Source: a virus
DNA: 26,463 nucleotides
Direction: 5' to 3' (one strand)
Virus record (IMG/VR): IMGVR_UViG_3300002835_000934
Location: 1 to 26,463 of that record
Under the pieces are notes generated by a model. The model was not told where the DNA came from, did no database searches, and was given only the letters and a program-made list of their open reading frames with translations. Within the stretch, counting starts at the first letter, position 1. Every line of letters starts with the position of its first letter. Shown piece by piece: positions 2,098 through 26,463 of the stretch. A program made the translations under genes and the position numbers.

Positions 2098-3030
2098 ATG
2101 AATAAAAATAAAATTTATTTAAAATGTAAAGTTTGTGGAGAAGAATTCAATTCTTTCTCAGACCTTCAAAAACATTTAAGATTTTATCATAAACTTTCTT
2201 GCAAAACATATTTTGAAACATATTGGAAACGTATTGACCGTTTTAATGGTAGTAAATTAGAATATAAATCATTTGACCAATATATTACCTGTGATTTCGT
2301 CGATAAGAAAAACTATAAAAACTGGCTAAAGACTTTGTCTCAAGAAGAGTGCGCTGATTATTTTAAAAGTAAATTAGACCAATATTGTAATTTAAAAAAC
2401 ATAGAAGTTGCCCCTTGTCAAGTAGAAGCTCAAAGTATTAATTGTTTATTACCAATAAGTACAATGGAAGCTTTGTCTGGAATGTGTTACAATGATCTAT
2501 GCCAAAAAATTGGATTACATTCCAGATTTAATTATCAAATTCCAGAGGATATTTCATGGACTCCAATTGCACAAATTATTGTAGATAGCCGTGAACAAAA
2601 GCCTTTTGATTTTAAAGAGCATACTATCTTAAATTCTAAATTAGAATATGGTGATTATTCTCTACATCCTAATAATAAATTAGCTATAGAAAGAAAAAGC
2701 TTAAGTGATTTATATGGAACTTTAAGTGGTGGGCGCGAGCGATTCGAACGCGAAATTCAAAAAGCTAAAAAACTAGACGGTTATATTGTAGTTGTTGCCG
2801 AATCAACTCTTAACAATATGATTTACCAAAAACAAAAATTTGGAAAAGCTTCTGGTGAGTTTATTGCTCATAATATGCGACAATTATTAAGGAAATATGA
2901 TAATTTACAATTTGTTTTTTGTGATGACCGTGAAGATGCTAAAATTAAAACTCTACATATCTTAGCAATGAATGAAGAAGCTTGTAAATTTGATTTGCAA
3001 TATTATTTTGATACACTATGGCACTTATAG
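2098..3030 (+). CDS. C2H2 zinc finger plus ERCC4/XPF-type nuclease
   Basis: The 310-residue protein begins with a textbook C2H2 finger: C10-x2-C13-x12-H26-x4-H31. A linker of unrecognised fold follows, then an ERCC4-family nuclease core from about residue 158: IIVDSREQ (D163, E166), YGDYSL (D186) and the diagnostic IERKSLSDL (E198, R199, K200, D204). These acidic and lysine residues form the metal-dependent active site in XPF/Mus81-type enzymes, which cut branched or flap DNA. Its 3' end overlaps the large terminase start by 13 bases, implying translational coupling and perhaps a role in resolving or trimming replicative DNA before packaging (inference). It has no Shine-Dalgarno sequence; the leader is AT only. 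Family assignment is strong; biological substrate is unknown. Confidence 0.82.
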   Translation: MNKNKIYLKCKVCGEEFNSFSDLQKHLRFYHKLSCKTYFETYWKRIDRFNGSKLEYKSFDQYITCDFVDKKNYKNWLKTLSQEECADYFKSKLDQYCNLKNIEVAPCQVEAQSINCLLPISTMEALSGMCYNDLCQKIGLHSRFNYQIPEDISWTPIAQIIVDSREQKPFDFKEHTILNSKLEYGDYSLHPNNKLAIERKSLSDLYGTLSGGRERFEREIQKAKKLDGYIVVVAESTLNNMIYQKQKFGKASGEFIAHNMRQLLRKYDNLQFVFCDDREDAKIKTLHILAMNEEACKFDLQYYFDTLWHL

Positions 3031-4922
3031 TAGGAAATCAAAAAAAATCTAAACCATTAGCTAACGTTAATAAAGAGTTACTGAATTTAAAAGGTGATTT
3101 AACTGACGAAGAGGCAAGGATTAGTCTTGCTAAATTTCTAAGATATAATCTTGGTTTTACCACGGAATTATCTATGGGTTTAACATTAGAAGCGTATCAA
3201 GAATTAACACTTAATTCTTTTTTTAATAGAAATTATTGCATGTTAGTTTGGGGTCGTGGTGGCGCTAAAAGTTTTTGCGCTGCAATCTATTGTATTCTTA
3301 AATGTATATTAGAGCCTGGGACTAAAATACTTATTGCGTCTATTAACTTTCGTACTAGTCGCCGTGTTTTTAATGAAATTGAAAAATTTTTAATGTCTCC
3401 AGGCGCGGCTTTAGCGAGACAATGTTTTGGTTTAAAAAGTAAACGAAATGACCAATACGAATGGCAAATTAATGGTGGTAGTATTACAGCTATTCCATTA
3501 ACTGGAGAAAAGATTCGTGGTATCCGCGCTAATGTACTTATTTTGGACGAGTTTTTACTTTTACCTCCAGATATTATTGACAATGTTCTTATTCCATTCT
3601 TAAGCTCCCCAAGAGACGTAGGTGAACGTATTCGTATTAGAAAATTAGAAGAAGAATTAATAAAAAAGGGTTTATTACATCCAGATAATCGGCATATTTT
3701 TGAGAACACATCTCAAATGTTATGTTTAAGTTCAGCAAGCTATACTTTTGAACATTTATTTCGTGTTTATCAGCAATGGTCACATTTAGTAGAACACCCA
3801 GACGAGCAAGAGTCTAAAGAAGGCGAGCTTCCTGGAACATATTTTATTTCTCAATTAAGTTATGAAGCCTTACCGCAACATATGGTCGATCAAGGCGCTA
3901 TCCAAGTTGCTAAAAGTGGTGGGAGTTCACACCATTCGTTTTTACGTGAATATTGCGCCCGTTTTATTGATGGTGGGGATAGTTATTTTTCACCTAAAAA
4001 AATGCATGAATGTACGATTTCAGATGGAGAATATCCAACTACTAAGGTAATTGGTGATAGTGATAAAAAATATATTTTAGCAATTGACCCGAACTTTTCG
4101 TCTTCTAAAGTTGCTGACTATTTTGCCATGAGTGTGATTGAGTTGGATGAAGAAAAAAAACAAGGCGTGTTAGTTCATGGATACCAAGCTGCGGGGTCAT
4201 CATTACAAGATCATATAAAATATTTTTATTATTTATATAAAAATTTTAATATTGCCTTGATTATTATTGACCATGCGGGTGCGGATACTTTTATAGATGC
4301 AGTAAATAATTCTCAGTTTTTTAAAGACATGAATCGTAAAGTTGGCTTTGTAGATTTTGATTCTGATAAAGAAAATGAAGATTATACAAAAATGTTAAAA
4401 GATTGCGCTCGTCAATATAATAAAGATTTTGGCAATATATGTATTAAACAATATTTTACAAGCTTCTTTTTGGGTCGCGCGAATTCTTATTTACAAACTT
4501 GTATTGATCATAAAAAAATATGGTTTGCCTCGCGCGCGAGCAACCATCCTGATATTTTAGAAAATATTTTTACAATGAATCTTCCGATGGAGTATATATA
4601 TCCTAGAGGTATTGGAGAAAAAGCGGATAACGAATATGAAACAAAAAAATTGACAGTCCGCGAATTTATAGAAGAGCAGGACTTCATTGTTCAAGATACG
4701 AAAGATCAATGTGCTAATGTTGAAGTAACCACAACATCTAGGGGTACCCAAAGTTTTGATTTGCCATCACATTTAAGAAAATCTACAAGTATAAATAGAG
4801 CTAGAAAAGATAACTATACTACTCTTATGTTAGGAAACTGGGGGGTTAAAGCTTATTTTGATATAATGGCTCCAGAAAATTTTGCAAAGAAAAATACAGA
4901 GTTTGTCGCAGAATTAATCTAA
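3018..4922 (+). CDS. terL: Terminase large subunit (packaging ATPase-nuclease)
   Basis: This is the motor that pumps DNA into the prohead and cuts the concatemer. The ATPase domain shows Walker A GRGGAKS (residues 79-85) and Walker B LILDEF (D177, E178), with an RxxRR-type region between. The RNase H-like nuclease half begins near residue 353 with ILAIDPNF (D357, first metal ligand) and continues with IIIDHAGAD (D418); the third acidic ligand is not assigned with confidence. At 634 residues it is at the long end of the usual range. The chosen ATG lies inside the end of the ERCC4 nuclease gene; a later start would shorten only the variable N-terminus. A TTAGTGTAA motif follows the stop, so the portal can be transcribed separately. 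Confidence 0.92.
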   Translation: MALIVGNQKKSKPLANVNKELLNLKGDLTDEEARISLAKFLRYNLGFTTELSMGLTLEAYQELTLNSFFNRNYCMLVWGRGGAKSFCAAIYCILKCILEPGTKILIASINFRTSRRVFNEIEKFLMSPGAALARQCFGLKSKRNDQYEWQINGGSITAIPLTGEKIRGIRANVLILDEFLLLPPDIIDNVLIPFLSSPRDVGERIRIRKLEEELIKKGLLHPDNRHIFENTSQMLCLSSASYTFEHLFRVYQQWSHLVEHPDEQESKEGELPGTYFISQLSYEALPQHMVDQGAIQVAKSGGSSHHSFLREYCARFIDGGDSYFSPKKMHECTISDGEYPTTKVIGDSDKKYILAIDPNFSSSKVADYFAMSVIELDEEKKQGVLVHGYQAAGSSLQDHIKYFYYLYKNFNIALIIIDHAGADTFIDAVNNSQFFKDMNRKVGFVDFDSDKENEDYTKMLKDCARQYNKDFGNICIKQYFTSFFLGRANSYLQTCIDHKKIWFASRASNHPDILENIFTMNLPMEYIYPRGIGEKADNEYETKKLTVREFIEEQDFIVQDTKDQCANVEVTTTSRGTQSFDLPSHLRKSTSINRARKDNYTTLMLGNWGVKAYFDIMAPENFAKKNTEFVAELI

Positions 4923-23941: not shown

Positions 23942-26463
23942 ATGGCTGCAATTAATTTAGATATTGGCGGTAATACTAGGCGTTTAGACAGGGATATACA
24001 AAAAACTGTCAATAAGGTCTATTCTATAAATCTTAAAACCAAAGGAGACCAACCTTTGGGACGTATTACTGGCAAAGTAAATGAATTTAATAAATCGTTA
24101 GATGCGTCTAACGCTCGTGTTATTGCGTTCGGTGCTAGTGCTGGGATTATATTTGGTTTAGAAAGAGCTTTTGGTGCATTAGTTAGATCCACGATAGAAG
24201 TTCAAAAATCACTCCAGGATATTAATGTTATTCTAAATGTTTCTAGCGAGCAGTTACAAAAATTCGGATCTGGACTTTTTAGTATCGCTCGTAATACTGG
24301 ACAGTCATTTCAAGAAGTTGCTAAAGCAGCAACTGAATTTTCTCGTCAAGGGTTAGGGGTCACAGAAACTTTAAAAAGAACTAATGAAGCCCTTATCCTT
24401 GCACGTTTAAGTGGTTTAGATACAGCCGCGAGTGTAGAAACTTTAACTGCTGCTGTTAACTCCTTTGCAGACCAAGCAGTTACAGCGACAGAAGTTGTAA
24501 ACAAATTTGCCACAGTTGACGCTGCTTTTGCTGTGAGTTCGGCAGATCTAGCAGATGCTATTTCGCGTGTTGGTAGCAGTGCTGCACAATCTGGTGTTAG
24601 TTTAAATGAACTTATTGCTATTGTTACATCTGCTCAACAAACTACTGCTCGTGGTGGTGCTGTAATTGGTAACTCATTTAAAACAATTTTTACGAGACTG
24701 CAAAGAGAAAAAGTTGTAGATCTTTTAGAAAGTTTGGGAATTAGTAACACAGACGCGAATGGTCAAGTAAAATCTACAATTCAACTTTTAACAGATCTTG
24801 GTAAAGTTTATGATACATTAGGTTCTCAACAGCAAGCTTATGTTGCCGAACAGGTTGGTGGCGTTTTCCAAATTAACATTTTAAAAGCTGCTCTTGCTGA
24901 TTTAGGAAAAGAGTTCTCAATATATAATAGCGCATTAAAAGTTTCTGCTGGTGCAACAGACCAAGCTCTTCGTCGTAATGAGGAATTAAATAAATCTTAT
25001 GCAGCACAAATTAACGCATTACAAGAAAATGCCAGACAACTTGCGGCAGCCGGAGGAGAAAGATTATTAGGGCCATCAATTGATCGCCTTGTTGGTGGAA
25101 CTAATGCAATTTTAGGTGGTATAAATGAAGGAGATGGTCAAGGCATCGGTGCTCAATTAGGTAAAGGAATCATTGATGGCCTTGGCCAATTTATAGCTGG
25201 CCCAGGTCTTGTTTTAATTGGCGGCGTATTATTAAAATTATTTAGCGATCTGAGCAAATTTGCTACAGGAAGTTTTCAACAATTATTAGGTTTAAATACA
25301 GCGGCAACACAGCAAAAAGATTTACAACAAAGTATTACTCAAATTTTATCAAAAAATCCAGATCTTTTAAAATTAGCATTACAGGGAACAGAGGGGCTCA
25401 ATACAGCCGCTAACGCTTTACTAGCAAATTTAAAAAATCAAACTGTAGAATTACAAAATCAAGAAAAAGTAGCAGCAAGAATTGCAAAAGCATTTGCGAC
25501 ACAAGCTGGCGTACGTGTTGCCGGTGGGATACCAGTTGTCCCAACTGGAAAAAGTGGTAAAGCCGCTGGTTACATTCCAAATTTTGCAGAAGAATTACAA
25601 GCTAAAGAACTTGGTGCAAAATCTAATGTTAAAGCTGTTCGCGGCATAGGTAAAATTGGTGGAAAGCCTTTTGAAGCTAATAATCAAGAATTTCAATTAA
25701 GAAATTTTGCAGGAACTGGCGAAACCGCAGTTATTCCAAAATATGGAAATGGAATAAAAGAAGCTGCTCAAATGATTGCGCGTGGCGAAAGCGGTTCAGT
25801 TTTAGACAAAAGTGATAGAAATAAAGCGATGGGTTTTGTTCCAAATTTTGCGACTGTTGATACTGTAGCAAATTTACAAAAACAGGCGTCAAAATCAGCT
25901 GGATTATTAAATCAATTATATAATGTTGGGGATCTAAAAGATAAAGGTATTCGTGATGAATATTTCAGACCCACAATAAAACGAGTTGCTTTACAAAAAA
26001 ACGTATCTCAATATACTAAAGAGGCTGATAGTTATATTAAAAATGCTAGAGAAAAAGCTTCTTCTAATCCGTCTTCTATTAATAAAGTATTTCAAAATTT
26101 AAAATATGGTGGTATTCCAATTTACAAATTTACAGATAAAATTAAACCAGAAACTTTACTTGACCCTAAAAAAGATCGTTTTAATAATACTAATATTAAA
26201 GGAGCAATGGGAGAAATTGACTCTCAAAAGCGTTTTGGATCGGGTCGTCGTACAGCAGAAAAACAAGGAGATTTGTTCGGTGCCGATTTTGTTGTTAAAA
26301 AACAAGGTGGAAATTATTTAGTAGAATCAAAAATAACACAAAGAAAAATTCCTGATAATATCCTTATTGCAAAAGCTTTGCAATATGAGGGTAAAACAGC
26401 TGGAGGTAAATATAAAAATAGAACAATAGATGAAGTTAAATTAAAAAATATTATTTTATCTTA
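23942..26463 (+). CDS. Tail tape measure protein with internal nuclease-like domain, 3' end missing
   Basis: The open frame runs from ATG at 23942 to the window edge (840 residues, no stop). Residues about 1-350 are TP901-type tape measure: SLDASNARVIAFGASAGIIF, then the Ala/Thr/Ser-rich helical core with ATEFSRQGLGVTETLKRTNE and ADAISRVGSSAAQSGVSLNE. Hydrophobic, possibly membrane-inserting helices lie at about 405-435 (IAGPGLVLIGGVLLKLF). GYIPNFA (543-549) and GFVPNFA (631-637) follow. Residues about 750-816 then carry E758, D782, E795 and K797 in the order and spacing of a PD-(D/E)XK nuclease core (GADFVV...LVESK). Tape measure proteins set tail length and enter the host envelope on infection, so an embedded nuclease could be delivered or could act in maturation (inference). 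The tape measure call is confident; the nuclease call is tentative. Confidence 0.85.
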   Translation, partial: MAAINLDIGGNTRRLDRDIQKTVNKVYSINLKTKGDQPLGRITGKVNEFNKSLDASNARVIAFGASAGIIFGLERAFGALVRSTIEVQKSLQDINVILNVSSEQLQKFGSGLFSIARNTGQSFQEVAKAATEFSRQGLGVTETLKRTNEALILARLSGLDTAASVETLTAAVNSFADQAVTATEVVNKFATVDAAFAVSSADLADAISRVGSSAAQSGVSLNELIAIVTSAQQTTARGGAVIGNSFKTIFTRLQREKVVDLLESLGISNTDANGQVKSTIQLLTDLGKVYDTLGSQQQAYVAEQVGGVFQINILKAALADLGKEFSIYNSALKVSAGATDQALRRNEELNKSYAAQINALQENARQLAAAGGERLLGPSIDRLVGGTNAILGGINEGDGQGIGAQLGKGIIDGLGQFIAGPGLVLIGGVLLKLFSDLSKFATGSFQQLLGLNTAATQQKDLQQSITQILSKNPDLLKLALQGTEGLNTAANALLANLKNQTVELQNQEKVAARIAKAFATQAGVRVAGGIPVVPTGKSGKAAGYIPNFAEELQAKELGAKSNVKAVRGIGKIGGKPFEANNQEFQLRNFAGTGETAVIPKYGNGIKEAAQMIARGESGSVLDKSDRNKAMGFVPNFATVDTVANLQKQASKSAGLLNQLYNVGDLKDKGIRDEYFRPTIKRVALQKNVSQYTKEADSYIKNAREKASSNPSSINKVFQNLKYGGIPIYKFTDKIKPETLLDPKKDRFNNTNIKGAMGEIDSQKRFGSGRRTAEKQGDLFGADFVVKKQGGNYLVESKITQRKIPDNILIAKALQYEGKTAGGKYKNRTIDEVKLKNIILS

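Follow-up and report, generated by a model that had tools for sequence, protein, structure and literature searches.

A putative PD-(D/E)XK-type nuclease cassette in the tape measure protein of an uncultured tailed phage, and cassette exchange at a repeated PNFA motif

The tape measure protein encoded at the end of a 26,463-base viral sequence (hereafter the window, which is a complete IMG/VR record) carries a domain whose best explanation, held at a probability of about 0.6, is a metal-dependent PD-(D/E)XK nuclease resembling UPF0102/YraN, constituting one exchangeable module in a tape measure whose C-terminal half consists of such enzymatic modules separated by G[FY][IV]PNFA motifs; it would be injected and play a role in conflict. 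The sequences themselves show where the domain begins and ends, that its E-D-ExK residues are conserved, that the motif recurs and that related phages exchange cassettes at this motif.

The last frame of the window (840 aa) is stop-free and open at its 3' end. It is a TP901-type tape measure, displaying a PhageMin_Tail domain and a very long frame within a tail gene block, and a PHROG search returned 19 tape-measure or related matches for it, the best being phrog_4211 (E 6.6e-52). An earlier note on this DNA had described a nuclease-like domain embedded in one uninterrupted tape-measure frame, behind two PNFA motifs, and our analysis bears out this layout: the frame runs without a stop from 23942 to 26463 after a TP901 N-terminus (PF10145, phrog_4211), two G[FY][IV]PNFA motifs precede the domain, at 25568 and 25832 (two found vs none expected), and residues E758, D782, E795 and K797 lie exactly where they had been placed in the 840-aa frame. 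The features of this region are as follows.

23942..26463, + strand: tape measure protein frame (PF10145 and PHROG tape-measure matches; complete in L003:6084-12884, 2266 aa)
24287..24862, + strand: TP901 / PhageMin_Tail domain, residues 116-307 (PF10145, E 5.6e-29)
25568..25588, + strand: PNFA motif 1 (GYIPNFA), cassette boundary (pattern search)
25589..25831, + strand: short first inter-motif segment of about 81 aa, 'KAVRGIGKIGGKPFEANNQEF..' type (small family with segments of 59-91 aa, comp 5)
25832..25852, + strand: PNFA motif 2 (GFVPNFA), cassette boundary (pattern search)
25853..26463, + strand: nuclease cassette of PD-(D/E)XK-like type (family f17), from residue 638 to about 849 (alignment A6, UPF0102 profile match with null, AlphaFold2 secondary structure)
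26213..26215, + strand: E758 (helix A, GEID), predicted catalytic; invariant in five relatives and aligned to the GE of UPF0102
26285..26287, + strand: D782 (first strand), predicted catalytic; invariant in five relatives and aligned with the aspartate of EID in UPF0102
26324..26332, + strand: E795-S-K797 (second strand), predicted catalytic ExK; E invariant, K in four of five relatives, R in L032; aligned to the VEVK of UPF0102

The sequence past position 26463, which the earlier note had proposed to obtain, was found in locus L003, which corresponds to the same phage (the matched stretches are 100% identical) and carries the frame on intact to 2266 aa; a relative with 82% identity (L004) encodes a tape measure of 3001 aa. 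PNFA motifs go on past the window end, the L003 and L004 tape measures containing five and six, respectively. The f17 cassette ends at motif 3, as seen in L003, and directly after this motif both L003 and L004 display a second E..D..DxK region (KGAVGVAFEGG .. NAGIDF .. YDAK). It is this wider context that the earlier note overlooked: many exchangeable cassettes exist, of which this domain is one, and a second E..D..DxK cassette follows directly. The GC content of the cassette part (25852-26463) is 28.8%, vs 38.1% in the N-terminal tape-measure part (23942-25570). Elsewhere in the window, we identified a gene for an ERCC4-type nuclease (2098-3030; phrog_3490, E 2.2e-17) that overlaps the large terminase gene (3018-4922), a sigma-70 region 2 protein (264-974; PF04542, E 1e-6), and a protein that combines three BppL_N repeats with a Phage_tail_C tip domain (10492-11784).

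The bare E-D-ExK pattern is weak evidence when taken alone, being close to chance: among shuffles of residues 640-840, the loose form E(10-40)D(8-20)[DE]xK was present in 70%, and the stricter form GE[IV]..D[FL]..[DE]xK in 0.17%. Because the loose motif is so cheap, the residues needed testing in relatives. Profile and pattern searches recovered the domain in five distinct tape measures, namely L003 (identical to the window), L004 (82% identity to the window domain), L339 (34%), L032 (23%) and L343 (17%), and a second and a third nuclease-first scan of viral contigs added one near-copy locus and nothing else. In the alignment of these five sequences (A6), the invariant positions are Y54, A58, G117, G120, E121, D123, F142, D145, E158, N189 and S212, with E121, D145 and E158 corresponding to E758, D782 and E795; the position of K797 is occupied by K in four of the five tape measures and by R in L032. 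Thus, the expected active-site arrangement, with E in a helix, D in a strand and (D/E)xK in the next strand, is conserved across the five relatives, the lysine in four of them.

A second line of evidence came from a profile of UPF0102/YraN (PF02021), constructed with 30 proteins taken from 40 bacterial genomes and compared by hhalign to all 81 families of inter-motif segments described below. UPF0102 and Mrr are established members of the PD-(D/E)XK superfamily. The window family ranked first among the 81 (probability 36.5, score 28.5, P 3.7e-4) and L032, a member of this family, ranked second, no other family scoring above 21. In the alignment, G..GE, D and VE.K fall on the catalytic residues of UPF0102, and the match extends into the following helix. 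None of 497 column-shuffled alignments reached the score of 28.5 (best shuffle, 23.1), and a known nuclease pair used as a yardstick, UPF0102 vs Mrr_cat, scored 32.7 in the same test. With the Mrr_cat profile the window family was also first of 81, with a weak score; VRR_NUC was tried as a further yardstick, with a member in none of 35 genomes. These profile comparisons point, with moderate strength and at a probability value of only 36.5%, to homology with a recognized PD-(D/E)XK family.

The cassette nevertheless lies outside the limits of that family, since a Pfam search with the domain gave no match even at E 10, below the UPF0102 gathering score, and a UPF0102 family search of the window record found no match, in a setting where 8 of 14 control genomes were positive. 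Pfam, PHROG and PDB sequence searches with the domain alone found no match either; the PDB entries retrieved by single-sequence search were at chance level and were discarded. The window domain therefore appears to be related to UPF0102/YraN rather than a member of PF02021. Both display the same order and spacing of G..GE, D and ExK, a predicted helix-strand-strand-helix succession and an aligned following helix; however, UPF0102/YraN is a free-standing cellular protein of about 120 aa, whereas the window domain is a tape-measure cassette that has a further helical region of about 100 aa at its N-terminus and does not score at Pfam level.

These results make it improbable that the motif arose by coincidence in an ordinary tape-measure linker devoid of any PD-(D/E)XK domain. 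Such an origin would agree with the frequency of the loose pattern in shuffles, the lack of library matches and the low confidence of the structure model, but it is difficult to reconcile with conservation at 17-34% identity and with first rank among 81 families, unequalled in 497 shuffles. Conservation in relatives and the profile match to UPF0102 together argue for a non-chance motif.

Structure prediction was less informative. AlphaFold2 on the five-sequence alignment yielded a mean pLDDT of 53.9, with values of 31-41 around the motif, and the structural check suggested by the earlier note gave no usable fold match, Foldseek finding none with a model too poor for a fold search. The PD-(D/E)XK fold is alpha-beta-beta-beta-alpha-beta, and the low-confidence order of elements comprises a helix at 105-128 (E121), strands at 144-151 (D145) and 154-161 (E158, K160), and a helix at 168-178, which is weakly suggestive of the expected arrangement. 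The PD-(D/E)XK reading of the earlier note is therefore sustained by the conserved residues, the in-register match to UPF0102 and the order of elements, and falls short on the fold; since the model is of low confidence and without a usable fold match, this reading is supported, not proven. With these comparisons integrated, we consider that the window domain is probably of PD-(D/E)XK type.

The relation between loci L339 and L067 illustrates how such cassettes are distributed. Their tape measures share 82% identity across residues 1-642, a stretch that stops only a few residues beyond PNFA motif 2 (GGYIPNFAKNK vs GGFVPNFAKNK); past this break, L339 carries a window-type nuclease and L067 a different segment, and identity returns at 41% where the next motif lies, rising to 81% downstream. 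In addition, the cassette that follows the window-type domain differs among its carriers, being of type f0 in L003 and L004, N50 in L339, f4 in L032 and N3 in L343. We regard it as very likely that the window-type domain is an exchangeable cassette.

To place this arrangement in a wider context, loci were gathered from viral contigs by a DNA pattern for GFIPNFA / GYIPNFA, and not by the nuclease residues. The motif was found in at least 120 viral contig stretches in one search and in at least 119 in a second; among the matches listed, nearly all loci display long frames with TP901-type N-termini and one to nine motifs. In at least 651 motif copies, G is present in 99%, and F/Y, I/V and F/Y dominate the other free positions, while P and N of PNFA were imposed by the search pattern. 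The segments between motifs, among the matches listed, fall into 81 families, 56 of which are single sequences. At least 183 metagenomic phage frames carry two or more motifs; among the matches listed, an E-D-(D/E)xK-type cassette occurs in 142 of 183, and two or more such cassettes in 15, counts that include fragments and some near-duplicate contigs and employ family labels that are partly a reading of motifs.

In the three largest E-D-(D/E)xK families (67, 28 and 11 sequences among the matches listed), E, D and K are nearly the sole D/E/K residues conserved at 90% or more. This bears on whether the window domain could be a degenerate, non-catalytic derivative of the fold with a DNA-binding or structural function, as the replacement of K by R in L032, the low overall similarity and the fast drift of tape-measure sequences might suggest. 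Given the constancy of E, D and K in these three large sister families, and the fact that the window family itself has few invariant positions, the predicted catalytic ones being among them, we find such a loss of activity rather unlikely.

The second cassette of the window phage, of type f0 (L003:8652-9335, in the same protein and beyond the window), has at least 67 relatives, in which E116, D135 and K157 are the only conserved D/E/K residues. Its AlphaFold2 model is confident (pLDDT 87.7) and found no fold match in PDB or BFVD; f0 may thus represent a new or different fold, or a very divergent nuclease. As the model is without a PDB or BFVD relative, we refer to it as an 'E-D-DxK cassette' and not as PD-(D/E)XK. 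A grouping of f0 and the window family, both of which carry E-D-xK, was considered and set aside: the direct profile link was not significant (probability 1.2), and they are consequently not claimed as one family.

Other cassettes gave Pfam matches to SNase (1.9e-9), NTase-associated (3.4e-8), GHKL ATPase (5e-5) and GNAT (7.4e-5) families, and a P-loop cassette matched P-loop proteins in the PDB (E 3e-4). The labels HAD-, kinase-, ART- and zincin-like are putative and derive from motif reading, and PDB profile searches gave no confirmation of the HAD-like and kinase-like ones. Individual observations include a 799-aa tape-measure cassette with a GHKL/HSP90-type ATPase match (L027:4352-6748); a P-loop kinase plus HIGH-type nucleotidyltransferase cassette (L339:4200-5700; L051:4886-6145), similar to the bifunctional NadR layout; an LYRGTS segment inside a tape measure (L089:517-1263), ADP-ribosyltransferase-like by motif reading; and an HExxH-type (zincin-like) cassette (L064:428-1390; L339 from about 6240), which by analogy with what is proposed for polyvalent proteins could act as a self-processing peptidase.

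Regarding function, the tape measure would fill the tail tube and exit ahead of or together with the DNA, so that its cassettes would enter the envelope or the cytoplasm; that of phage lambda interacts with partners in the inner membrane as injection proceeds (PMC13190303). Modules of 20-25 kDa would, if folded, fit tightly in a tail tube, and hence they may pass through it unfolded or be placed close to its tip. PNFA might be a site where modules separate or fold independently. Once inside, the predicted nuclease could act early, on the host chromosome, a resident plasmid, competing phage DNA or an RNA target. By analogy with tape-measure biology, delivery of the cassette into the cell as an effector seems to us slightly better than an even bet. 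Fast swapping would fit a role in conflict, as effector or counter-defence, better than an unchanging structural one, and cassette turnover together with the enzyme-like variety leads us to favour an early-conflict role with the host or competitors. An active DNase alongside phage DNA would need control or specificity, which counts against this explanation.

The main rival to the conflict role is a function in packaging or at the genome end, in which the PD-(D/E)XK domain would work inside the virion or act on the genome of the phage itself, for instance by trimming the DNA end or keeping it in place where head and tail join or at the tip of the tail. The carrier protein is structural and lies near the end of the DNA, and T4 gp4, a virion-associated 'head completion protein' with a TnsA-like REase fold whose DNase activity is needed for packaging, offers a precedent (PMC7824862); furthermore, the E-D-(D/E)xK cassettes in 142 of the 183 frames among the matches listed suggest a widespread, possibly housekeeping function. 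Nevertheless, the strong cassette turnover between close relatives and the SNase-, GNAT-, ART- and NTase-like companions, which make no sense for packaging, render this role unlikely.

More broadly, we give about even chances to the proposal that a widespread group of uncultured tailed phages uses the tape measure as a vehicle for polymorphic, motif-punctuated enzymes swapped at GFIPNFA, a tail-lumen effector system that would be undescribed so far. Predicted nucleases would be the commonest of these enzymes, accompanied by SNase-, acetyltransferase-, nucleotidyltransferase-, ADP-ribosyltransferase-, kinase- and protease-like ones. If so, the tape measures of many uncultured phages would carry effectors that act early, beyond their role as ruler and channel, and GFIPNFA would offer a simple means of cataloguing hundreds of new phage enzymes acting at entry, including counter-defence or anti-competitor nucleases. 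A concrete question becomes testable, namely which portions of the protein get into the cell and with what function.

With regard to novelty, tblastn searches of 50,697 phage records gave no match for the window cassette, the linker or the L339 cassettes, and one chance-level match (E 1) for the second L003 cassette. The PNFA motif was found in no cultured phage among the collections searched, and a motif scan of a genome collection returned for the most part isolated chance matches; three motifs were present only in L232, a contig of 4 kb assigned to Proteobacteria by binning. PNFA together with tape measure was not found in the literature searched, which contained no relevant motif report; the titles and abstracts listed mentioned no tape-measure nuclease cassette. 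That nothing turned up in these sequence and literature collections does not prove novelty.

Three known systems display partial resemblance. In their N-terminal parts, the PNFA tape measures share 25-30% identity with tape measures of SPbeta type and others, and SPbeta YomI, annotated as a lytic transglycosylase, shares the TP901-type N-terminal part (27-30% identity) and an enzymatic domain embedded in the tape measure; in YomI-type proteins, however, the domain is single and wall-degrading, whereas the window-type tape measures carry nuclease-like and other cytoplasm-type modules, and the PNFA motif was not found in muralytic tape measures such as YomI. The polyvalent proteins of phages and conjugative elements (Iyer et al., 2017) are multi-domain proteins thought to be delivered with the invading DNA and separated by peptidases, and contain several conflict-type enzyme domains per polypeptide (PMC5512222). 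Several distinct effector-type domains likewise occur in one PNFA tape-measure polypeptide; polyvalent proteins are separate delivered proteins, described in a text that mentions neither tape measures nor a punctuating motif (PMC5512222), whereas in the present case the tape measure itself serves as carrier and GFIPNFA as punctuation. Finally, the MuF polymorphic toxins of temperate phages also combine a virion-type N-terminal carrier with an exchangeable toxic domain (PMC12226406), but in these the carrier is the portal-associated MuF, the toxin is C-terminal and an immunity gene is present (PMC12226406), in contrast to the internal, serial cassettes of the PNFA tape measures.
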